Assembly: GCA_014376785.1 (NCBI GenBank) | Contig: JACMQW010000046.1 | Coordinates: 1 to 33,396, forward strand | DNA length: 33,396 nucleotides | DNA from: Oligoflexia bacterium | GTDB lineage: Bacteria; Bdellovibrionota; UBA1018 | Reading direction: 5' to 3' | Part shown: positions 3,490 through 33,396 of the stretch, in pieces | How the letters are laid out: every line of letters begins with the position of its first letter | Position numbering within the stretch: position 1 is the stretch's first letter | Translations under genes and position numbers: made by a program | Notes under the pieces: model-generated | What the model saw: the letters and a program-made list of their open reading frames with translations, nothing else | Database searches by the model: none | What the model was told of the DNA's origin: nothing

Positions 3490-4371
3490 TTAAACGGACA
3501 AATCCTCGGTTGATTGAACGGCTTCTCGGTACTCCAGAGGCGACTTCATTTTCAAGCCCGAATGCGGATGATTACGATTATAATCCGCAAACCATTCAGG
3601 CAGACGACGAAGTACCGATTCCGCCGTCCAAAGCTCATTCACATAAACGTAATCTCTTTTAAAAATCTTCACGAACGCTTCTGCCATTCCGTTGCTCTCG
3701 GGAGAGTATGCAGGCGTATTGCACATCTTAAATCCCCAGGCAGAGCCGTAGGCGACGGTTTGCAGTGCCATGAACTGCGGACCGCGGTCAGATAACCTCT
3801 GAATCTCGTGCGGAAGCTTCTCGATAAATTCCCCAAACCGGTGGGTCACCGTCTGATCGATCAACCGAATGATATCGCCGTGAAATAAAGGCCGCTTTTC
3901 CGCTACGTAACTCATCGTCTCGCGGTCGTGGCAATCGAGCGAGAACGCGACAAAAACTTTCTCGCCGTTCCAGCACTTAAATTCCAGAATATCTGTGCAG
4001 TACCGGATGTTTGATTTAATTGTGATCACTTGGCCAAGATGCGGACGTTTCGGGAGCGGTGAAGCTGACTTCTGTAAGGTTAACTTATTGATCTGCATTA
4101 CGCGTAAAATCCTCTTTTTATTCCAAGACGTGAGGTCTGAAAGTCTTCGCTCACGGTTAATAAGCGCGGAAACTCGCGGGTAACCGTAAGTGCCTCGGTC
4201 TTTAGTCACATCTAGTATTGATTTTAAAACCACGGGACCATCGCGACGTTTATAGCGCTTCGGCCGGGGCTTCCTATTCTCGTACTGATTAGAGCGAGAA
4301 ATGGAAAGCACCCGGCAGACGCGTGCTATTTTAAATTTACCTCTCCGAATTACTTCGCGGGCGAGATCCAC
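3490..4371 (-). CDS. IS3-family transposase OrfB (DDE integrase)
   Basis: The frame is 293 residues and begins at a GTG at 4371. It has the helix-turn-helix-like start (RVCRVLSISRSNQYENR), the HTH_21-type linker with GTYGYPRVSALI, and an rve integrase core. Catalytic residues are visible: D in YCTDILEF, D in LSDRGPQF and E in SPESNGMAEAF, the last two 35 residues apart, as expected for D-D-(35)-E. The C-terminal FKRDYVYVN ... HPHSGLKMKSPLEYR block is typical of the IS2 group. It overlaps orfA by 22 bases and is most likely made as an OrfAB fusion by -1 frameshifting. No internal stop is seen, so the element may still be active. Confidence 0.9.
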   Translation of the reverse strand: MDLAREVIRRGKFKIARVCRVLSISRSNQYENRKPRPKRYKRRDGPVVLKSILDVTKDRGTYGYPRVSALINRERRLSDLTSWNKKRILRVMQINKLTLQKSASPLPKRPHLGQVITIKSNIRYCTDILEFKCWNGEKVFVAFSLDCHDRETMSYVAEKRPLFHGDIIRLIDQTVTHRFGEFIEKLPHEIQRLSDRGPQFMALQTVAYGSAWGFKMCNTPAYSPESNGMAEAFVKIFKRDYVYVNELWTAESVLRRLPEWFADYNRNHPHSGLKMKSPLEYREAVQSTEDLSV

Positions 4372-4697
4372 TTTTTTTTAACCGCGATGTCGTGCGCTTC
4401 TTTCAGAATATCTCGGTCAAGAGTTGCGCTTACGAGCGATCGACGGAGGTTCTTAATCTCCTCGAGTGCTTTTTTGTATTCAGCTAACGGGACCGTTTCT
4501 TCGGCTTTGGGCTCGTGAGATTTGCCGAGCACGGCGCTTTGTTCCAGCTTCTTCCACTGGATGACATTTTGGGTTGCGATCCCGTATTGCCGACCTAGCT
4601 GAGACGCCGTGGCGCCCGCCCTGAGCTCCTCAAGAATCTTTTGCTTAAACTCGGATGGGAAAATTCGTTTGCCCGCGGCATTAACTTGAAACTGCAT
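4350..4697 (-). CDS. IS3-family transposase OrfA
   Basis: The product is 115 residues. The first half contains the helix-turn-helix of IS3-type OrfA (FPSEFKQKILEEL ... ASQLGRQYGIATQNVIQWKK), which binds the element ends. The second half is a coiled-coil/leucine-zipper stretch (LAEYKKALEEIKNLRRSL) used for multimer formation, then DRDILKEA, which in the family leads into OrfB. The ATG at 4697 lies 44 bases inside the right end of the element, so transcription probably starts within or outside the terminal repeat. Alone, OrfA normally represses; fused to OrfB it forms the active transposase. Confidence 0.9.
   Translation of the reverse strand: MQFQVNAAGKRIFPSEFKQKILEELRAGATASQLGRQYGIATQNVIQWKKLEQSAVLGKSHEPKAEETVPLAEYKKALEEIKNLRRSLVSATLDRDILKEAHDIAVKKKWISPAK
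4371..4377 (-). promoter_or_regulatory. Programmed -1 frameshift site A_AAA_AAG
   Basis: On the minus strand eight A residues are followed by G (4379-4371). In the orfA frame the codons are AAA AAA AAG TGG. Slipping back one base reads AAA AAA GTG GAT and enters orfB at its first codons. A_AAA_AAG is the classic slippery heptamer of IS3-family elements. Confidence 0.8.
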
Positions 4698-12687: not shown

Positions 12688-14151
12688 TTATTTTCCTAGG
12701 CACGCATCCACGCGCGATTCCAGAAAGCTCCCATAGTTCGACGCTTCGGATGTGGGGAGCGAGAGCAAGGTCATGCTGGCGCGAAAGTCGTAGTGGTATT
12801 TTTTCTTGTCCAAGATGGCTTTCGCAAGGGAAAGTTCGCCGTGTGGATGGATGTAAATTTTCGTGTCGCGGTACATGGGTTTAGACAGGATGGCTTGGAT
12901 GCGGGCGTAGGCCTTTTGATCCTGATCGGTTGCATTTCGAAGGCGGTAAGTTCCGGCGATGATCGCGTCTGAATTTTTTGTAGCGGTGATTTGATCGTAG
13001 GGTAACCACTCGGATTCACTGTCGTAACTTTCGCCGGGTTTCAAGTAAGTAAGCCAAGCCATGTTTTTTGTGATCTCGTCGGAATCATTTTTCAACTGAG
13101 TGAAATCTTGATCAGCCGAGGTGGCTCCGCCGGGCGACGCGAGCGACGCAAATTCTTGCGCCCCTTCTTTAGAAGTGGAAATCACGATTGCATTGCTATT
13201 CAGTTCCGTGACGAGGGCCTGCGAAGTGCGCCCGGCGGCTAAGTCTTGTTGGGATTGCCTCTGGTAGTCTTGGTTCGTGCTCAGGCCGATCCGAAATCCT
13301 GTCATTCCGTATTCGCCGAACCGACTATTTTTCCTGACGTCGGTGGCTTTTAATTTCGCGTTCGATCCGAAAAAGGGGCTTTGAGTGCCTTGAATTCCGT
13401 AATTCGGATCGGAAGTAAAAGGTCCCACGGCAAGATTCGGATACTCGCGGTTAAACCGAGCCGCTTCCTTTTCATCCATGATTCCATCGGCGCCTGCGAA
13501 GAGTTCGTAAGCACCTAGGTTGAGTAAGTTAACCGCTCCGCCTCCGCACTCCAAGCGACATTCTTCGCCGTAGAAGCATTGCATCGCGGCCGCGCTATCC
13601 CCGTTCGAAGCCACGCAGTAGGAGCCTTTCAAACCCGACCAAAGCTTTTGAAAGCCCGGACCAGAAACGCTGCAGAGGCGATTTTTTTTCACGTCGTCTT
13701 CGGTCAGAAATCCGTATTTGGGATTTCTTTTTAATTTTAGCGCCGCTCTTTCGAGAGCCTTTGCGAGCTGCTTTTTATACTCACAATAGGCGGGGGTGGA
13801 CCAAAGCCAATCGACTCGTTTTGATTCGTTCTTTAAATCTTCCGCTGACGCAATATTTGCGACGAGGGGGGGCGTGTCGGATGAGCACGGGTAGGCGGAT
13901 CCGGGCTGGCGAGGGTTCGTCGCGGGCGCACCGGACCTGAATTTGATCTTCATTTCTTTTTCTAGAATGCGGTAGTGACAAATCTCATCGTCGCTTGCAC
14001 CCGCTAGAATCTGGGATCTCATGGCGGGTGGTAATCCGAGTAAGAGGTCATCAGAGCGGGGCTTCGCGGCGAGAGCCGAGAGGGAAAAGAGTGTGACCGC
14101 CGCCGTGAGCAGTATTCGGACAACGGAGATTAGGAAGGGAAGACGCGCCAT
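12688..14151 (-). CDS. Secreted cysteine-containing protein of unknown function (487 aa)
   Basis: The ATG at 14151 has AAGGAGAG just upstream. A signal peptide runs to about residue 29 (LLTAAVTLFSLSALAA). The mature protein has about ten cysteines, clustered in AYCEYK, RLCSVSG, SYCVAS and QCFYGEECRLECGGGA (about 110-205), which suggests disulfides in the periplasm or outside. A later region (about 280-420) is rich in Asn, Asp and Ser, and the end has YIHPHGELSLAKAIL and a last Cys (DACLGK). No family is recognised. It converges on greB with 12 bases between stops. Upstream, about 90 bases separate it from the divergent cysE. Confidence 0.75.
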   Translation of the reverse strand: MARLPFLISVVRILLTAAVTLFSLSALAAKPRSDDLLLGLPPAMRSQILAGASDDEICHYRILEKEMKIKFRSGAPATNPRQPGSAYPCSSDTPPLVANIASAEDLKNESKRVDWLWSTPAYCEYKKQLAKALERAALKLKRNPKYGFLTEDDVKKNRLCSVSGPGFQKLWSGLKGSYCVASNGDSAAAMQCFYGEECRLECGGGAVNLLNLGAYELFAGADGIMDEKEAARFNREYPNLAVGPFTSDPNYGIQGTQSPFFGSNAKLKATDVRKNSRFGEYGMTGFRIGLSTNQDYQRQSQQDLAAGRTSQALVTELNSNAIVISTSKEGAQEFASLASPGGATSADQDFTQLKNDSDEITKNMAWLTYLKPGESYDSESEWLPYDQITATKNSDAIIAGTYRLRNATDQDQKAYARIQAILSKPMYRDTKIYIHPHGELSLAKAILDKKKYHYDFRASMTLLSLPTSEASNYGSFLESRVDACLGK

Positions 14152-14239
14152 GCTCTCCTTATGATAAAGAGGAAACTCTCATAAATGAACTGTTTAAAGG
14201 CTGTGGATCTTTTGACGATTCCACGCCAAACTCATTTGC

Positions 14240-14785
14240 ATGCTAAAGCTTCTGCGAGATTACCGACGTTACGACCCCGCTGCTCAGAGCATCCTCGAAA
14301 TATTGCTATTTTATCCTGGGATTAAGGCGATTCTGTTTCACCGAATTGCCCATTTTCTCTTTGATTTAAGAATTCCCCTGCTTCCCAGGTTTGTCTCGGA
14401 ACTATCCCGGTTTCTGACCGGCATCGACATTCACCCCGGAGCTCAGATGGGCGCCGTGATCATCGATCACGGAATGGGCGTCGTGATCGGGGAGACCGCG
14501 ATCGTCGGGAATGGCGTCATCATCTATCAAGGAGTGACTCTCGGTGGGACGAGTCTGAGGCGCGAGCGGAGGCATCCGACCATCGGCGATAATGTCGTCA
14601 TCGGAGCGGGGGCGAAAGTTTTAGGTGCGATCGATATTGGAGCGGGGACGCGAATCGGATCGAATTCGGTTGTGGTTGAATCTGTTCCTCCGAATTCCAC
14701 GGTGGTGGGAATTCCCGGTAAAGTGATTCGACGCGGAATTCGTGAAGGTGAAGAGCTCAGTCACGAGCAAATTAAGGACGCGTGA
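14240..14785 (+). CDS. cysE: Serine O-acetyltransferase (short form)
   Basis: The enzyme acetylates L-serine with acetyl-CoA to O-acetylserine, the first step of cysteine synthesis. The 181-residue product has the alpha-helical N-part ([16 protein letters not shown]) and then the left-handed beta helix of hexapeptide repeats from [11 protein letters not shown]. It carries [16 protein letters not shown] and IYQGVTLGG, including the catalytic Asp-His region, followed by [18 protein letters not shown]. It lacks the longer N-terminal domain of the E. coli enzyme and matches the short Bacillus/cyanobacterial type. No cysteine synthase is next to it. No clear Shine-Dalgarno sequence precedes the ATG. 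Its stop overlaps the start of the next gene. Confidence 0.93.
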
Positions 14786-15309
14786 TGATGATTTGTGAGC
14801 CTGGTACTTTTTTACTCAAATGGGTGACGGTTTTCTCGATCCTGGCTTTCAGCACTTTGCCGGCGCAAGCGTACGGGCAGAGGGAGTTTTTCATGAACTC
14901 CGCCGGTATTGATTTCCTCGGGGGTGCGAATCGTTTTTCACTCGCTCCTGGATTTAATTTCGGTCTTTTTTCATGGATGCAGGTTGGTGGTTCGATCGGA
15001 TATCAGAGCTTGGCTTTCGGGAGTGATAGCGTGAACACCACCACCTACACCGTCGGACCGACGTTCAATTTAGGCGGCACCGGCTCTTACCTCGTCTCCG
15101 ATTTTATCTTCGTGGGTTACGCGATTCGGAAAGGGAGCGGACACGTCAGTGATCCTTTGCAGGATCCTGCAGGAAGTGGCTTCTCCCTCTTCTACGGGAA
15201 ACGGATTCCGTTTTTCGGAACCTTTGCTTACCGGCCGAGCGTGGGAGTTCAGATGGCAGGACGAACGACGGTGGTCTTAAACTTACTGGCTGCTTCTTAT
15301 TTTTTTTAA
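14785..15309 (+). CDS. Small outer-membrane beta-barrel-like protein
   Basis: The ATG at 14785 shares its A with the stop of cysE (TGATG) and has AAGGA six bases before it; GTG 14782 and ATG 14788 are alternatives. The product is 174 residues: a signal peptide (WVTVFSILAFSTLPAQAYG), then alternating hydrophobic strands (FSLAPGFNFGLFSWMQVGGSIG, TYTVGPTFNLGG, LFYGKRIPFFG) and an aromatic C-terminus (AASYFF), as in outer-membrane barrels of about eight strands. The function is unknown. The coupling to cysE is tight but gives no obvious metabolic link. Confidence 0.75.
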   Translation: MMICEPGTFLLKWVTVFSILAFSTLPAQAYGQREFFMNSAGIDFLGGANRFSLAPGFNFGLFSWMQVGGSIGYQSLAFGSDSVNTTTYTVGPTFNLGGTGSYLVSDFIFVGYAIRKGSGHVSDPLQDPAGSGFSLFYGKRIPFFGTFAYRPSVGVQMAGRTTVVLNLLAASYFF

Positions 15310-15346
15310 GCGGTTACGCCGAGTTGATTCGAGAGTCTCTTAGTGT

Positions 15347-16948
15347 TCAATAGAACCATTTCAAATCGTAATCCGAGTAAGTCGTGTCGTACCGAGTACT
15401 CGTCCCAGGTTTCATGGCTGTTCTTTCTGCGGCACCATTGAGTTGGCAAGCGAGTAGTTTTTTTCGAACATCCGTTTTATTCGCGTCCCAGTACTCGTAA
15501 AAAGATTTAAGTTGTTTGCAGTAATCGGCCCTAATTGTCGGAAGTGTGGCTTTGTCGAGCGCGCATTGGATGACGTGGTTTCCACGGTGATTATTTCTAG
15601 CGTCGGTCGGATCGATATAATCTTGGTCACGCTGTCCAGTGCGAATCATTTCGCAACTCGGATTAAATTTTTTCGCCATGCACGCAGCAAATTGGGTCGC
15701 TGTCATATCCGGAGAAATAAAACCGGACAGGTATGCTAGGTAACTCGTTAAATACCCTCTACCATTTGCGGCTGGATAATGGGTTTGGATTTGGGAATGT
15801 AGAAAATCTTGCAATCCTTCTTTTACCGCTGCGCCACCTGGAGCGAACGCGGGAAAAGCATAAAGTTCGGAAGCTTTGCCAAAGATTATTTGGGTGCGGT
15901 CCTTGAATGTGTAACTTTTGAGTTGGATGTCTTCTGCTTTCATGTCGGCCGCGGTTTTGTCCGGGTGCGTGCCAGGACGGCCGGGAACGCTCGTCGTGAG
16001 TTTTCCTGAGGGCGCGCGCGGTAGCTTCACTGCATTTACGTAATTCCAAACACCTTTTTCAGCACTGAAATTGTCAGCGCTCGCTAAATTACAAGCCATT
16101 AGAAAAACGGTTTTCAATCCGGAAAGTAGGGTTTTTCCTGAAGTGGCACCGGGAGTGCCGGGATAATCATCGGTCCGAATTCGGTCGGATCCAGTGAAAG
16201 AATTCCCACAAACTTCTCGTGTCCTCACGAGCTGGGAAAGCTGAAGCCTTGGGCCGAAAAAATCTGTGGAGGAACTAGGTAGTTCAGTTGCTCGCCGATT
16301 CAAGGTCGAAGAATTATTTGCCCAAACTTTTGGGAGATTATCCTCATAGTTGTAAAATTCATTGGAGTAAATGAACTGATTTCTTTTCACGCAATAACCG
16401 TAACCGCAGTTGCCTGCAGTATCGTCTTGTCGGTATTGCACCGGAACTCCACCTTGCATGCCCGTTGTCATGCCGTTTGAACCCATGTTTCCGAAGTCAT
16501 GGTGGCCGGAGATGATCAACGCATCACAGGTTCTTCCAGGGTAGCCTGCAATTTCACCTTCCAGCATTTCTTCGTGCCACGGATAGCTGTTTCGAGCGGA
16601 ATTATACCTACCCCCGACGGGGTCCTTTGGTAGGCGCTGAGGTCCGTAAGCGTCGACGTTGGCAGTCGCATTCTTTTCGAGACGAACGTACTCGTGGAAC
16701 AGAATGCAGCCATCCGCACTGCGAACGTCATTGGTGCGGTCGGTTGGAGTTCCGATCGCATCAACCGGAACTCCTGCTTCGGCTTTGAAAACATCCAGTT
16801 CGGTTTCGCTGCCGATGGTGACCGAGCAAAAAATATAGGGGGCTGGATCACTGAGCGGACATTGCGCTCCGTATGCCGACAATGCCATGAAAAAAATCGG
16901 CGCTAAAGTCGCTTGAGCGATGGTGAAAGTTTTGATCGTTTTTTTCAT
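15347..16948 (-). CDS. Secreted protein with a possible clan-CD cysteine peptidase core
   Basis: The product is 533 residues with a signal peptide ending at SAYGA (about 28). Two features recall caspase/gingipain-type (clan CD) peptidases. One is a hydrophobic strand ending in His, CDALIISGHHDFG, with H149/H150. The other is a hydrophobic strand ending in Ala-Cys, KTVFLMACNLASADN, with C286. A later IIFGKASELYAFPAFAPGG would fit the loop that follows the Cys strand in relatives. The His-Cys distance of about 136 residues is long, so a large insert would be needed. Many other cysteines suggest disulfides. AGAGG lies about ten bases before the ATG. It is 65 bases downstream of the next secreted gene and may share its transcript. 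The catalytic reading is inference. Confidence 0.7.
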   Translation of the reverse strand: MKKTIKTFTIAQATLAPIFFMALSAYGAQCPLSDPAPYIFCSVTIGSETELDVFKAEAGVPVDAIGTPTDRTNDVRSADGCILFHEYVRLEKNATANVDAYGPQRLPKDPVGGRYNSARNSYPWHEEMLEGEIAGYPGRTCDALIISGHHDFGNMGSNGMTTGMQGGVPVQYRQDDTAGNCGYGYCVKRNQFIYSNEFYNYEDNLPKVWANNSSTLNRRATELPSSSTDFFGPRLQLSQLVRTREVCGNSFTGSDRIRTDDYPGTPGATSGKTLLSGLKTVFLMACNLASADNFSAEKGVWNYVNAVKLPRAPSGKLTTSVPGRPGTHPDKTAADMKAEDIQLKSYTFKDRTQIIFGKASELYAFPAFAPGGAAVKEGLQDFLHSQIQTHYPAANGRGYLTSYLAYLSGFISPDMTATQFAACMAKKFNPSCEMIRTGQRDQDYIDPTDARNNHRGNHVIQCALDKATLPTIRADYCKQLKSFYEYWDANKTDVRKKLLACQLNGAAERTAMKPGTSTRYDTTYSDYDLKWFY

Positions 16949-17013
16949 TGAGGAAATGCCTCTCGGTCAGTGGAAGACTAAACTCATTGTTACGGGTTCA
17001 TTCGTGAGCAGCT

Positions 17014-17925
17014 TTAGGGACAGATTCGACGTTCTACGCGAGGACCGCGCTTTTCCTGTTTGTAGAGCGCTTTTTCCCCTGATCCAACCAACGCGAAAGA
17101 GGGGGGAGAAGCGACTTTTTCGAAAGCTGAGTAGCCCTCAGTCATTTCTCGGAATTTTGCCCGGCTGGACTCGTCTAGCCTGCTATCGCTTTTCATGGTT
17201 TCCAGATTTGCTACGTTCAAAGGAAATGGAAAGCTATGGTACGGCACCGAATAAACGCTCTCGCTTTTATCCGATTTGCGAATGCAATTGCTGTTGAGAG
17301 CCGTGAACAAAATGAGTTGGATTTCATCGAAATCCGATTCGCTCACACTCAATTCATTTAATTTTCCGCAGTCGCTTCCCAGCGTCGGAGTTCCGCCTGG
17401 AGGATCATATCCACCCTTAGCTGACTTGAGTTGATCCGGGCCGAAAGAATAAAATCCCATGGGTAAATTTTTGGAACTTCCGCAAAGGCTGTATCGACTG
17501 AAGAGGATGTAGTTTCCCGATTCCCCCTCTAGCCAGAGTTCGAGAACACCCATTCCGTCAGTTTCTTCCGCTTTCATTTTTTTAAAGGAGCGCAGAAAAG
17601 CAGGCGCTCCATAAGTTAGGCCTTTTGCGGCCAGTTTTCGGCTGACCGCGAATGCCCTTTCCGTCGACCATAAACTCGACGGCCGGAAGTCAGAAGTGAT
17701 TTGGGTCAGGCATGCCGGCCACTGGGCTGAAGGTGCGCCGTTCGAATTTGAATTCGCTGGAATTCTCGCAAGGAGAGACGCCTTCTTCAGATGGAGCCAA
17801 TTTTCGTATCGGCTTTCAGTGGGGCGAAGTGACTTTGCCTGAAGGGTCGAACTGGAAAAAAGAGTAGGGGTTAAAAGAGTGATTAAAATTAATGGGCTGA
17901 AGTGAAGATTTCCCGTCTCTCTCAT
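17014..17925 (-). CDS. Secreted protein of unknown function (303 aa)
   Basis: The N-terminus (LILITLLTPTLFSSSTLQAK) is a signal peptide with likely cleavage after LQA. The mature part has five or so cysteines (PACLTQ, SLCGSS, SDCGKL, SNCIRK, RRICP) and no recognised domain. Segments such as GVLELWLEGESGNYILFSRY look beta-rich. The final GPRVERRICP is basic. It is followed after 65 bases by the peptidase-like gene on the same strand, so the two could be co-transcribed. The Shine-Dalgarno sequence is weak. Confidence 0.65.
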   Translation of the reverse strand: MRETGNLHFSPLILITLLTPTLFSSSTLQAKSLRPTESRYENWLHLKKASLLARIPANSNSNGAPSAQWPACLTQITSDFRPSSLWSTERAFAVSRKLAAKGLTYGAPAFLRSFKKMKAEETDGMGVLELWLEGESGNYILFSRYSLCGSSKNLPMGFYSFGPDQLKSAKGGYDPPGGTPTLGSDCGKLNELSVSESDFDEIQLILFTALNSNCIRKSDKSESVYSVPYHSFPFPLNVANLETMKSDSRLDESSRAKFREMTEGYSAFEKVASPPSFALVGSGEKALYKQEKRGPRVERRICP

Positions 17926-18038: not shown

Positions 18039-18980
18039 TCAGCTTCGAAACAAAAAAGGCAGCGTGATTCGACTCACTTTTTCCGAGGGCGGAAACCTTG
18101 CGGAATCGAGCGCTTCGGCGATCGTGCGGATCGCGGACAGTGCGGTCGTATTTTCGTCTGGGTCTGAAATATTTAACAGAGTGTGAGTGAGAAGCTCTTG
18201 CTTCCCTGGTTTTCCGGCCGGAGAAACCGTCACCCGAATCGAGAGGGTTCCCTGGAGTTGATCGAATTCGCCTAGTTGAATTGCCAGCGGTTCTAAAATC
18301 GAATTCAGGATTTGTACGGTTTTCTTGTTTTTTCTCAATCCGCCTTCGATGAATGGCCTCGGTTCGACGAACCACCCATGAATGACGAGTCTGCCTTTCA
18401 GGGGTTCTCTCGTCCCTCGCACTTCTTTCACTCCATGCGGGAGTCGTGGATCGAAAACGGTGAGCTGATTAAATTCGGCCGGGATGGATTCGAAGAGGTC
18501 ATCGAATTCAATTCCACGGTCATTTCTTCCGTCAGACTTAAAATTCGGCCAAAAATTCAGCAGGGCGTTTTTCGCTAGTAAGGTTTCGCCTCCTCTAAAA
18601 ATCCGTTCGGCCCAAGGGGTGAGTGAATAAACATACGCCCATGGTCCGTGGGGCGAGTCCGCATGAAAATTCTGAAAACTTCCGTCCACGTAAAGGCTGA
18701 GCCAAGGATCGGAAATTCCGTTACAGCCGAGTTTCGTTTGGCCATAGGTTTGAAGGTCGCGTTCGAACTGATCAAATAATTTTTTAGGAAAATAGTGGCG
18801 AGCCGGAGTCCTGAGCACACTGTACTGATTTTCAATGTGCCAGTAATCCCAGACGAATCGGTCTGATTGGGTGTTTCGAGGGTCGACAAATTTTCGCTCA
18901 AACGCCTGGCGGAGGGGCTTTGCCGCTTTTGTAAAATTTTTTTCAATGTGGAGGGGGTGAGGAATCAGGGGAACTGCCAT
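18039..18980 (-). CDS. 2OG-Fe(II) oxygenase with a C-terminal TonB-C/AgmX-like domain
   Basis: The start is ATG 18980, in preference to a TTG five codons up. The 313-residue protein has no signal peptide. Residues about 85-205 form an Fe(II)/2-oxoglutarate dioxygenase core: H106 and D108 in NFHADSPHG, H182 in RLPHGVKE, and R197 in GRLVIHGWF, which would bind the 2OG carboxylate. GGETLLAKNALLNFWPNF gives the middle of the jelly roll. From about residue 235 a second unit (GTLSIRVTVSPAGKPGKQEL ... NTTALSAIRTIAEALDSARFP ... ITLPFLF) resembles the C-terminal domain of TonB and AgmX/PglI proteins. The substrate is unknown; a protein, lipid or small molecule are all possible. It is followed at a distance by the secreted gene at 17925. 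Confidence 0.8.
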   Translation of the reverse strand: MAVPLIPHPLHIEKNFTKAAKPLRQAFERKFVDPRNTQSDRFVWDYWHIENQYSVLRTPARHYFPKKLFDQFERDLQTYGQTKLGCNGISDPWLSLYVDGSFQNFHADSPHGPWAYVYSLTPWAERIFRGGETLLAKNALLNFWPNFKSDGRNDRGIEFDDLFESIPAEFNQLTVFDPRLPHGVKEVRGTREPLKGRLVIHGWFVEPRPFIEGGLRKNKKTVQILNSILEPLAIQLGEFDQLQGTLSIRVTVSPAGKPGKQELLTHTLLNISDPDENTTALSAIRTIAEALDSARFPPSEKVSRITLPFLFRS

Positions 18981-19050: not shown

Positions 19051-19545
19051 TTAATGGGGCAAAGTGAATTTTTCGTGCTGTTCGGGCTTGTACCGCTTTC
19101 CAGTCAGAATGGCTTTCGCGAAACCGGCGAGTTGGATCACTTTGGAAGCCGGGGTTTCCCAGTATTCTGCTTTCTCGACGCTCACTTTCAGTAGCGCGAT
19201 GTTCGGATCCTCCAGACCCTTCGGGAACCACGCATGGTAAAGCGGGTTCCAGCGTTTTTTCATCTCTGCCCGATCGAAGACCAGGGAGGCGTTTCCGGAA
19301 ACGGAGACAAAGAGTTCGCGTTTGGGTTCTGAATAAATAACGTTTACGCGCTCCTCTGTGTCGATTTCTTCGGCTTTTCCAGAGTTTGCTTCGGTAAAGA
19401 ACCAGAGAGTTCCGTCGAAGTCTTCCATCTGAGTTCCCATCGGACGTGAGTGCAGTGTGCCATCTTTAGCGACGGTGACCAGCATCGCAATTCGAATTTC
19501 CTCGATCAGTTCACCGAGTTTTTGAATGTCATTGGGGTGTTTCAT
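19051..19545 (-). CDS. Pyridoxamine 5'-phosphate oxidase-like (general stress 26-type) flavoprotein
   Basis: The ATG at 19545 follows GGAGAGGAG closely; the upstream frame start lacks a signal. The 164-residue protein matches the split-barrel FMN-binding family of general stress protein 26: MLVTVAKDGTLHSRPMGT, then GTLWFFTEANSGKAEEI, VNVIYSEP and VSVSGNASLVFD. The C-terminal KKRWNPLYHAWFPKGLEDPN and VEYW-like KAEYWETP are typical of this subgroup. Such proteins bind FMN or FAD and are linked to oxidative or general stress; the substrate is not known. It is a single gene with the tRNA-Leu divergent behind it. Confidence 0.85.
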   Translation of the reverse strand: MKHPNDIQKLGELIEEIRIAMLVTVAKDGTLHSRPMGTQMEDFDGTLWFFTEANSGKAEEIDTEERVNVIYSEPKRELFVSVSGNASLVFDRAEMKKRWNPLYHAWFPKGLEDPNIALLKVSVEKAEYWETPASKVIQLAGFAKAILTGKRYKPEQHEKFTLPH

Positions 19546-21268: not shown

Positions 21269-22390
21269 ATGAAATCGATTGCCGCTGTTGCTTGGGAACC
21301 GAAACGTCCGCTTGAAATTGAAGAAATAGACGTCGAGGGACCGAAAGAAGGCGAGGTTCTCGTGCGAATGGTCGCAACCGGAGTTTGCCACACGGACGCG
21401 TTCACGTTATCGGGCGAAGATCCGGAAGGTGTTTTCCCCTGCGTGCTTGGTCATGAAGGGGGAGGCGTAGTCGAGGAAATCGGCAAGGGCGTGACTTCGC
21501 TCAAGGTCGGGGATCACGTGATTCCGCTTTACCTCTCTGAATGTAAGCAGTGTCAGTACTGCTTATCCGGTCGCTCAAATCTTTGCGATGCGATCGCCGA
21601 AACCGAGTGGTCTGGGTTGATGCCAGATGGAACCACTCGGTTTTCAAAAAACGGCAAGAAAATTTTTCACTACATGGGTACTTCTACTTTTTCGGAATAT
21701 TCCGTGATTCCGGAAATCGCATTGGCGAAGATCAATCCACTCGCACCGCTTGAAAAAGTTTGTCTTCTCGGCTGCGGAATCACGACCGGCATCGGAGCGG
21801 TTTTAAATACTGCGAAAGTCAGGCCCGGATCGACCGTGGCAGTCTTCGGACTTGGCGGGATCGGCCTCAGTGTCGTCCAAGGTGCCGTGATGGCGAAAGC
21901 CAGTCGAATCATTGTCGTCGACATCAACGAAGAGAAATTCATTTTAGCGAAGCAACTCGGCGCGACCGATTTTATTAACCCAAAAAAACACGCGTCGCCC
22001 ATTCAAGAAGTGATCGAGGAACTGACCCACGGAGGAGTCGACTATTCCTTTGAGTGCGTCGGTAATGTCGACCTGATGCGGTCGGCACTCGAGAGCTGCC
22101 ACATGGGGTGGGGCGAGTCGATCATCATCGGCGTAGCCGGCGCAGGAAAAATGATTCAGACACGGCCCTACCAGTTGGTGACCGGCCGGATTTGGAAAGG
22201 CAGTGCGTTTGGGGGAGTGAAGGGAAGGACCGAGCTTCCGGGTTACGTTGAAAACTACATGGCTGGAAAAATCGAGATCGATCGGATGATTACCCACACC
22301 ATGGGGATCGAAGACATTAATCAAGCGTTTGATCTCATGCATTCCGGGAAAAGCATTCGAACAGTCATTCATTACGGAAAAAAATCATGA
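21269..22390 (+). CDS. frmA: S-(hydroxymethyl)glutathione dehydrogenase (class III alcohol dehydrogenase)
   Basis: The enzyme oxidises S-hydroxymethylglutathione, formed from formaldehyde and glutathione, to S-formylglutathione with NAD+. The start is ATG 21269 with GAGGAG before it; the frame runs further up but over the previous gene. The 373-residue length fits the family. Catalytic zinc ligands are C40 (GVCHTDAF), H62 and E63 (GHEGGG) and C169 (LLGCGITTG). Structural zinc cysteines are C92, C95, C98 and C106. The Rossmann motif is GLGGIG at about 194. The C-terminal [14 protein letters not shown] is typical of class III enzymes. Its stop overlaps the esterase start by four bases. Confidence 0.95.
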
Positions 22391-23277
22391 CGGGAAAAAT
22401 GGACCTGACTCGGGAGCATAAGCAATTCGGCGGAATGAACCGCTTTTACACTCATGAATCGAAAGCTTGTAACGGGCCGATGAACTTCGCGGTTTATTTA
22501 CCTCCGGCCGCAGTCGGCTTATCGCCTAGCCGGAAGTTTCCAGTCCTCTATTGGCTGTCGGGACTGACTTGCACCGAAGAAATCTTCATGACCGAAGGCC
22601 AAGTTCAGGCTTACGCAAGCCAACATGAAGTGATCATTATCGTCCCCGATACGAGCCCTCGAAGGACTGGCATTCCGGGTGAAGACGATCGCTACGACCT
22701 CGGCTCGGGTGCGAGCTTCTATGTCGATGCCACCACCCCGAAGTGGAAACCCCACTACCAGATGGACACCTATATCACGCAGGAACTTCGAGAGGTCGTG
22801 GAATCTGAACTCCCGATCGATCAAAATCAGCGGGGGATTTTCGGCCATTCGATGGGCGGACATGGAGCGCTGGTGTTAGGTTTGAGAAATCCAGAACTCT
22901 ATCATTCGATTTCTGCCTTTGCTCCGATTGGTGCCCCGATGAAAGCCCCTTGGGGGATACTCGCGTTTTCAGAATATTTAGGAACCGATCAGAAAGCGTG
23001 GGAGGGATACGATGCGTGCCACTTACTGCGTAGAGTTTCCGCATCGGGAAATCTAAAAAATTTAGCCCCGCTACTGGTCGATCAGGGGTCGGACGACGAG
23101 TTTTTTGAAAAGGAGCTTTTCACCGAAGATCTAAAATCGGCGATCAAAGAGACGGGGTATCCAGGAAAGGTTCGGGGTCAAGGTGGCTACGATCACAGCT
23201 ACTTCTTCATCTCTTCTTTCATGGAAGAACACATCCTCTTTCACCTGAAGAATTTTCAATCAGCGGCAAAGGCTTAG
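22387..23277 (+). CDS. frmB: S-formylglutathione hydrolase
   Basis: This serine esterase splits S-formylglutathione to formate and glutathione, finishing the step begun by the upstream dehydrogenase. The 296-residue product has the alpha/beta fold with [12 protein letters not shown], the nucleophile elbow [10 protein letters not shown] (S155), an acid in DQGSDDEF and the catalytic His in [11 protein letters not shown], all typical of the family. The [19 protein letters not shown] block is also diagnostic. The ATG overlaps the upstream stop (ATGA), so translation is coupled. No FrmR-type repressor gene is seen, so regulation may be constitutive or act through another regulator. Confidence 0.95.
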
Positions 23278-32828: not shown

Positions 32829-33396
32829 TTAGCGTCGATCCAGAGAGCCCCGGGCGCCGAAATAATCGGTCATCATGTCGGAGCGCTCGACCGTCGTGTG
32901 TCCGATCGTTTTTGCGGCATCCTCCAGACCCTGAAGCAGGATCTTAAGACGCTTATCTGAATTTTCTTTCAGACGATTTCGAATCGCCGCCGCTTGTTTC
33001 ACGTCGAATTTCTCAGCGGTGAGATTTTTCACGTAGAGGGCTCGAAGCTTTAAAGACTCGTCTACTCCCGCATCGAGATCACGGCGCAAGCGAGCCCCCA
33101 CTTCGAGGATTTTCGATTTCTCGTCTGCGCTGAGAACCGTCGACGCCCGGATTTCTGCATCGGCCGTTGCCCGGAAGTTCTCTGCAGAACTCGGAGTGGC
33201 TTCCGCTTGTAAGGCCTTGTCCAGTTTATGATTTTCTGCGGTGTGCGCGCAGCTGAGCGTCCCTAGCGCAGCGAAGAGCAAGGCACCAGTGAAGCGACCA
33301 GTGAAGCGACCAGTGAAGCGACCAGTGAAGCGACCAGTGAAGCGACCAGTGAAGCGACCAGTGAAGCGACCAGTGAAGCGACCAGTGAAGCGACCA
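32829..33396 (-). CDS. Lipoprotein with repeat-derived N-terminus (5' end outside window)
   Basis: The stop is at 32829-32831 and the frame is open to the window edge. Reading back, the mature part (about 140 residues) starts at a lipobox-like GTLSCAHTAEN, so the Cys would be lipidated after cleavage. Before it lies a hydrophobic core (GALLFAALGTLSC), then nine copies of a 12-base unit that read Arg-Phe-Thr-Gly repeatedly. A TTG at 33281 could start translation, but would leave a signal peptide without its basic part. So the true start is probably within or beyond the repeat. The mature part is helical (ADEKSKILEVGARLRRDLDAGV ...) and of unknown function. Confidence 0.65.
   Translation of the reverse strand, partial: GRFTGRFTGRFTGRFTGRFTGRFTGRFTGRFTGRFTGALLFAALGTLSCAHTAENHKLDKALQAEATPSSAENFRATADAEIRASTVLSADEKSKILEVGARLRRDLDAGVDESLKLRALYVKNLTAEKFDVKQAAAIRNRLKENSDKRLKILLQGLEDAAKTIGHTTVERSDMMTDYFGARGSLDRR
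33286..33396. repeat. 12-bp tandem repeat, nine copies, running off the window
   Basis: The unit ccagtgaagcga repeats perfectly from 33286 to 33393, plus three bases to the edge. On the minus strand it reads Thr-Gly-Arg-Phe in frame with the lipoprotein. Twelve bases keep the frame, so copy number can change without breaking the gene. The array ending at the window edge may also mark an assembly break. Confidence 0.95.

Follow-up and report, generated by a model that had tools for sequence, protein, structure and literature searches.

Gene and predicted protein

The window, the 33,396-nt stretch of DNA analysed here, belongs to a draft genome (3.2 Mb, 96.6% complete) whose closest relatives in the tree are Bdellovibrionota MAGs. 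An ATG-to-stop open reading frame (ORF) of 313 codons occupies positions 18980..18039 on the minus strand. It is one complete ORF whose ends agree with those in a preliminary description of this DNA, which named no strand and had read the gene as a 2OG-Fe(II) oxygenase fused to a TonB-C/AgmX-like domain. The features of the locus are as follows.

18039..18980, minus strand: oxygenase/TonB-C-like gene, 313 aa, ATG start (ORF and full-length homologs)
18342..18953, minus strand: catalytic domain, residues ~10-213, distorted double-stranded beta-helix of prolyl-hydroxylase type (AF2, Foldseek, Pfam)
18657..18665, minus strand: HxD iron ligands H106 and D108, motif HxDxPHGPW (invariant, 78/78)
18435..18437, minus strand: distal iron ligand H182, motif FDPRxPHGV (invariant, 78/78)
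18390..18392, minus strand: R197, the 2OG-binding arginine by position, motif RLVIHGWF (invariant, 78/78)
18042..18341, minus strand: TonB-C/AgmX-tail-like domain, residues ~214-313, alpha-beta-beta-alpha-beta (AF2, hhalign, Foldseek, hmmsearch)
19051..19545, minus strand: pyridoxamine 5'-phosphate oxidase-like flavoprotein, upstream neighbour, 70-nt gap

The reading frame was supported by a homolog in 27 of 58 related genomes; most of these aligned over the full length and all lacked internal stops. This conserved single ORF rules out a frameshift or assembly artefact. No signal peptide or membrane helix was found in the 313-residue protein, and neither it nor any of 81 homolog ORFs has a hydrophobic N-terminal segment, which bears out the earlier remark that a signal peptide is missing.

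The AlphaFold (AF2) model of both domains together reached a pLDDT of 94.9 and a pTM of 0.92. Such a pTM for a two-domain chain means that the relative orientation of the domains is predicted confidently, and it speaks for an accessory domain in rigid packing rather than on a loose tether. The model thus implies a fixed arrangement, in which the C-terminal tail seems packed on the catalytic core. We regard the two-domain architecture as practically certain.

Catalytic domain

The complete HxD...H...R set of the preliminary description was recovered in full: H106, D108, H182 and R197 were each present in 78/78 sequences of the family alignment (78 homologs). The protein has the features of the 2OG-Fe(II) oxygenase superfamily, namely the HxD...H triad, the 2OG arginine and a predicted DSBH fold. 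Searched alone against Pfam, the window protein matched 2OG-FeII_Oxy_4 weakly (E 0.055); family members matched 2OG-FeII_Oxy_4 in 71/78 and 2OG-FeII_Oxy_3 in 52/78 cases, with a best E of 1.9e-10.

Foldseek with the full model returned, at E 1e-8 to 1e-6, PiuC (9qn0), 3dkq from Shewanella, human OGFOD1 (4nhx), the P. putida P4H (PpP4H, 4j25), PHD2 and Tpa1. The top match was PiuC 9qn0 (E 3.6e-8), at 10-12% identity and an rmsd near 11 Å over the chain. The small-molecule oxygenases PolD, SnoN, PrhA, WelO5 and AviO1 were also matched. The family profile searched against PDB sequences gave OGFOD1 as its best match, which is confined to the H...R region at a weak E of 0.04-0.05 and is therefore a lead, not membership; a single-sequence PDB search with the window protein gave nothing useful. 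No characterised prolyl hydroxylase resembles the protein in sequence above noise level. The catalytic half resembles the prolyl hydroxylases PiuC, P4H, PHD2 and OGFOD1/Tpa1 and is a member of none.

The closest comparison is with OGFOD1/Tpa1/Ofd1, the uS12 prolyl 3-hydroxylases (2OG-FeII_Oxy_4, PF13661). They have the same catalytic fold, an RLxIxGWF motif around the 2OG arginine (RLVIHGWF at R197 aligns with RLSISGWF of OGFOD1) and likewise a second, non-catalytic C-terminal domain. However, this second domain is another DSBH in OGFOD1/Tpa1/Ofd1 and TonB-C-like in the window family, so the tandem DSBH of OGFOD1/Tpa1 is absent, and the sequence match between the two groups is at noise level. 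The OGFOD1 subfamily has been described as eukaryote-only, and a role in substrate or partner recognition has been suggested for the catalytically inactive C-terminal domain of OGFOD1 (PMC4396695). PPHD, the P. putida P4H that hydroxylates EF-Tu (4j25), likewise has a prolyl-hydroxylase-type DSBH and is bacterial and cytoplasmic, but it is a single domain without a TonB-C tail.

C-terminal domain

The window protein alone matched NCBIfam myxo_SS_tail, the AgmX/PglI C-terminal domain, over residues 238-312 with an E of 0.077, which is below the curated cut-off. Across the family, myxo_SS_tail was found in 57/78 members (E<=0.1; best 1.2e-5) and tonB_Cterm in 8/78 (best 1.7e-3). The 78 family tails were aligned by hhalign with 18 genuine AgmX tails drawn from genomes of relatives, giving a probability of 98.2% and an E of 5.5e-14 over 88 columns. 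Modelled alone, the domain folded as alpha-beta-beta-alpha-beta (pLDDT 93), and its top 15 PDB matches in Foldseek were all C-terminal domains of TonB, HasB, FusB or TolA (best E 1.2e-3; TM 0.42-0.58). In an hmmsearch of the tail profile against PDB sequences, TonB came first (E 1.4e-4) and the top 7 were TonB chains. Profile-profile comparison, fold search and PDB-sequence profile search thus agree on the TonB-C/AgmX-like domain proposed earlier, and a predicted fold unlike TonB-C, which would have spoken against it, was not obtained.

The tails of AgmX/GltJ-PglI (myxo_SS_tail, NF033768) and TonB_C (PF03544) share this alpha-beta-beta-alpha-beta fold and the pattern G-x-[LV]...G-x-V...FP...V-x-x-P-x-x-F with the window family. 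We conclude that the domain and the periplasmic tails of the AgmX-like proteins in these bacteria are homologous. Those tails are periplasmic, stand at the ends of long proteins and carry two invariant cysteines, whereas in the window family the tail comes after an oxygenase, the protein has no signal, and the Cys pair is absent. Two or more cysteines occur in 18/18 AgmX tails versus 5/78 tails of the oxygenase family, and tail-only matches of the full-family profile in other genomes were mostly the ends of long proteins (415-632 residues). The rarity of a Cys-containing tail and the length of only 313 aa set the protein apart from AgmX/PglI. Nor does it have the architecture of a TonB energy transducer: an N-terminal membrane anchor is absent from the 81 ORFs, and the N-terminal part is an oxygenase. 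The lack of a hydrophobic N-terminus and of the Cys pair fits a cytoplasmic location of the C-terminal domain. Mean column identity was 32% in this domain and 64% in the catalytic part; the lower value is as compatible with a structural role as with partner recognition.

Distribution of the fusion

Relatives of the protein were encoded at 133 genome loci, of which 80 were kept. Related predatory and soil bacteria with the two-part gene number well over a hundred; one ortholog is that of Bdellovibrio sp. qaytius. Across Bdellovibrionota and Myxococcota, the two phyla in which the preliminary description had proposed to search for the two domains, both recur together in a single gene that is present in one copy. 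Within the phylum, 67 of 290 genomes carry the gene (74 matched, minus 7 tail-only). No intact tail-less copy was found among these 67 carriers; apart from copies truncated at a contig end, all had the C-terminal region. In the most divergent copy (G041, 320 aa), the tail has its proper length and a degenerate pattern. Shortened versions of 274 and 267 aa keep the tail and lack a catalytic-domain loop.

Outside the phylum, Myxococcota carry the gene, as do a few MAGs whose labels, taken as given, are Planctomycetota, Pseudomonadota or Actinomycetota. The tree mostly tracks taxonomy, and Myxococcota form one clade with one Pseudomonadota-labelled MAG. This and the lack of any plasmid or viral relative led us to reject a recent mobile origin. 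Full-length homologs in many genomes rule out a chance or single-genome fusion.

As the preliminary description had supposed, no curated family in Pfam or NCBIfam has the oxygenase and TonB-C order, and nothing on this domain combination was found in open-access papers. The domains are known; the combination is widely conserved and apparently undescribed. The same description had allowed that the C-terminal region might be a normal part of a known oxygenase family. Half of this held: the tail is a fixed part of its own oxygenase family, and that family is uncharacterised. With the tail fixed throughout, this is a long-standing design of the family and nothing peculiar to the window.

Genomic neighbourhood and alternative functions

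A comparison of neighbours in other genomes, as proposed earlier, showed that the genes beside the oxygenase gene differ between clades, so context does not decide the substrate. No conserved substrate-protein or partner gene was found beside it. The pairing with the pyridoxamine-oxidase-like neighbour of the window was not seen in other genomes, and a same-genus MAG has only wider synteny in common with the window.

Several other features of the window were recorded. About 2 kb from the oxygenase gene, at 21269-23277, a zinc alcohol dehydrogenase gene (class III/formaldehyde-dehydrogenase-like by eye) is directly followed by an esterase-family gene (S-formylglutathione-hydrolase-like by eye). 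This pair is probably for formaldehyde detoxification, and it was not seen beside the oxygenase gene in the same-genus relative. Three minus-strand ORFs (303, 533 and 487 aa) at 12688-17925 have hydrophobic N-termini and no Pfam match, and two minus-strand ORFs at 3490-4697 resemble by eye an IS3-type transposase pair (orfA/orfB). A perfect 12-nt tandem repeat at 33285-33396 (9.3 copies of ACCAGTGAAGCG, 100% matches) reaches the contig end, and the contig may have broken within this array. Translated in one minus-strand frame, the repeat gives successive GRFT tetrapeptides ahead of ORF 33281..32829.

In one Pseudobdellovibrionaceae clade, an FAH-family hydrolase gene lies directly upstream of the oxygenase gene at 13 loci. 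Twelve of these loci have a gap of -4 to 38 nt, with a 4-nt overlap in several; the thirteenth has a longer overlap with an uncertain start. The maiA gene (TIGR01262 equivalog) lies 2-3 genes upstream of FAH on the other strand; these loci also contain an outer-membrane barrel gene and, downstream, genes for OxyR- and OsmC-like proteins. FAH and HPPD genes also occur within about 10 kb in a clade of Kofleriaceae-like Myxococcota. Of all carriers of the oxygenase gene tested for HPPD, 16/17 have it. The occurrence of FAH in two separate clades, picked after the fact, is suggestive. It points to a small-molecule oxygenase of aromatic-amino-acid or related catabolism, in which the TonB-C-like domain is a structural or dimerisation module, and the fold family does contain small-molecule enzymes. 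We consider this explanation somewhat unlikely, as the neighbours in other clades are unrelated (rpsB-tsf-pyrH-frr, an acyl-CoA dehydrogenase or a putative methyltransferase gene) and the window's own neighbourhood has no FAH/maiA/HPPD-type gene. Association with classical homogentisate dioxygenase (HGD) was also lacking, since 17 of the 290 genomes share both genes and about 16 were expected.

The idea that the oxygenase replaces HGD was weakened by this chance-level co-occurrence and by a divergent HGD-like gene in genome G167. The latter (L138, G167:C1, around 3070658-3072792) encodes a 375-aa protein (PF04209, E 6.9e-7) that adjoins HPPD in a Bdellovibrio-like genome without classical HGD. 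In at least one FAH-linked genome, a divergent HGD-like gene thus lies beside HPPD and the oxygenase is not needed for that step, which also counts against the small-molecule explanation. Genus g42 has the oxygenase gene without classical HGD and genus g66 the reverse; the HGD search gave no match in several g42 genomes. Genera within one family are split between classical HGD and a divergent or undetected form.

A ribosomal or translation-factor hydroxylase with an OGFOD1-, YcfD- or PPHD-like target is a sub-case of protein hydroxylation that we hold to be quite unlikely. In Myxococcaceae/Archangiaceae, rpsB-tsf-pyrH-frr lies directly downstream of the oxygenase gene, and the best PDB sequence match is a uS12 prolyl hydroxylase. 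However, only related Myxococcota show the rpsB linkage, OGFOD1 is a weak match, and most carriers have other neighbours.

PiuC/CciO/YbiX proteins include the top fold match and are iron- and 2OG-dependent, a dependence that is predicted for the window protein, but they lack a TonB-C tail and, unlike the window family, are encoded beside a TonB-dependent transporter gene. An iron-homeostasis oxygenase of this kind, whose TonB-C-like domain interacts with TonB-dependent uptake, would fit that fold match and the functional tie of CciO, the Caulobacter homolog of PiuC, to a TonB-dependent transporter (PMC12004947), but it is very unlikely given the low identity and high rmsd of the PiuC alignment, a protein predicted to be cytoplasmic while TonB acts in the periplasm, and no TonB-dependent receptor recognised by eye among 442 long-ORF neighbours within three genes.

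Proposed function

Four points are established computationally: both domains are present, the active site is conserved, the fusion is fixed in two phyla, and a signal peptide is lacking. We propose that the protein is a cytoplasmic protein hydroxylase of prolyl-hydroxylase-like fold with a TonB-C-type accessory tail, a statement to which, taken whole, we give slightly less than an even chance. Protein hydroxylation as the predicted activity is about equally tentative: against it stand the noise-level similarity to characterised prolyl hydroxylases, the small-molecule oxygenases of the same fold, and the FAH/maiA context of one clade and FAH/HPPD context of another, which could mean a small-molecule substrate.

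The proposed hydroxylase would be an Fe(II)/2-oxoglutarate dioxygenase of P4H/PHD/OGFOD1/PiuC-like fold, with iron held by H106, D108 and H182 and 2-oxoglutarate by R197. It would hydroxylate an amino-acid side chain, most likely prolyl, of a cytoplasmic protein. The last ~100 residues would be a TonB-C/AgmX-tail-type domain that became a permanent accessory of the catalytic core, packed against it. This domain may bind the substrate protein or stabilise the enzyme, like the extra C-terminal domain of OGFOD1/Tpa1. A TonB-C-like module that guides the oxygenase to a partner protein, as first suggested for this gene, is possible. If the TonB binding mode is kept, a beta strand of the domain would pair with an extended peptide of the partner. 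A bolder version, which we consider unlikely, is a new bacterial class of two-domain protein hydroxylase, whose module from the periplasmic AgmX/TonB repertoire now captures substrate in the cytoplasm by beta-strand pairing.

As a prolyl hydroxylase, the protein would represent a widespread bacterial exception whose second domain comes from a quite different source, and it would show a TonB-type domain working inside the cytoplasm. A sizeable set of unannotated genes of Bdellovibrionota and Myxococcota gains a testable activity.
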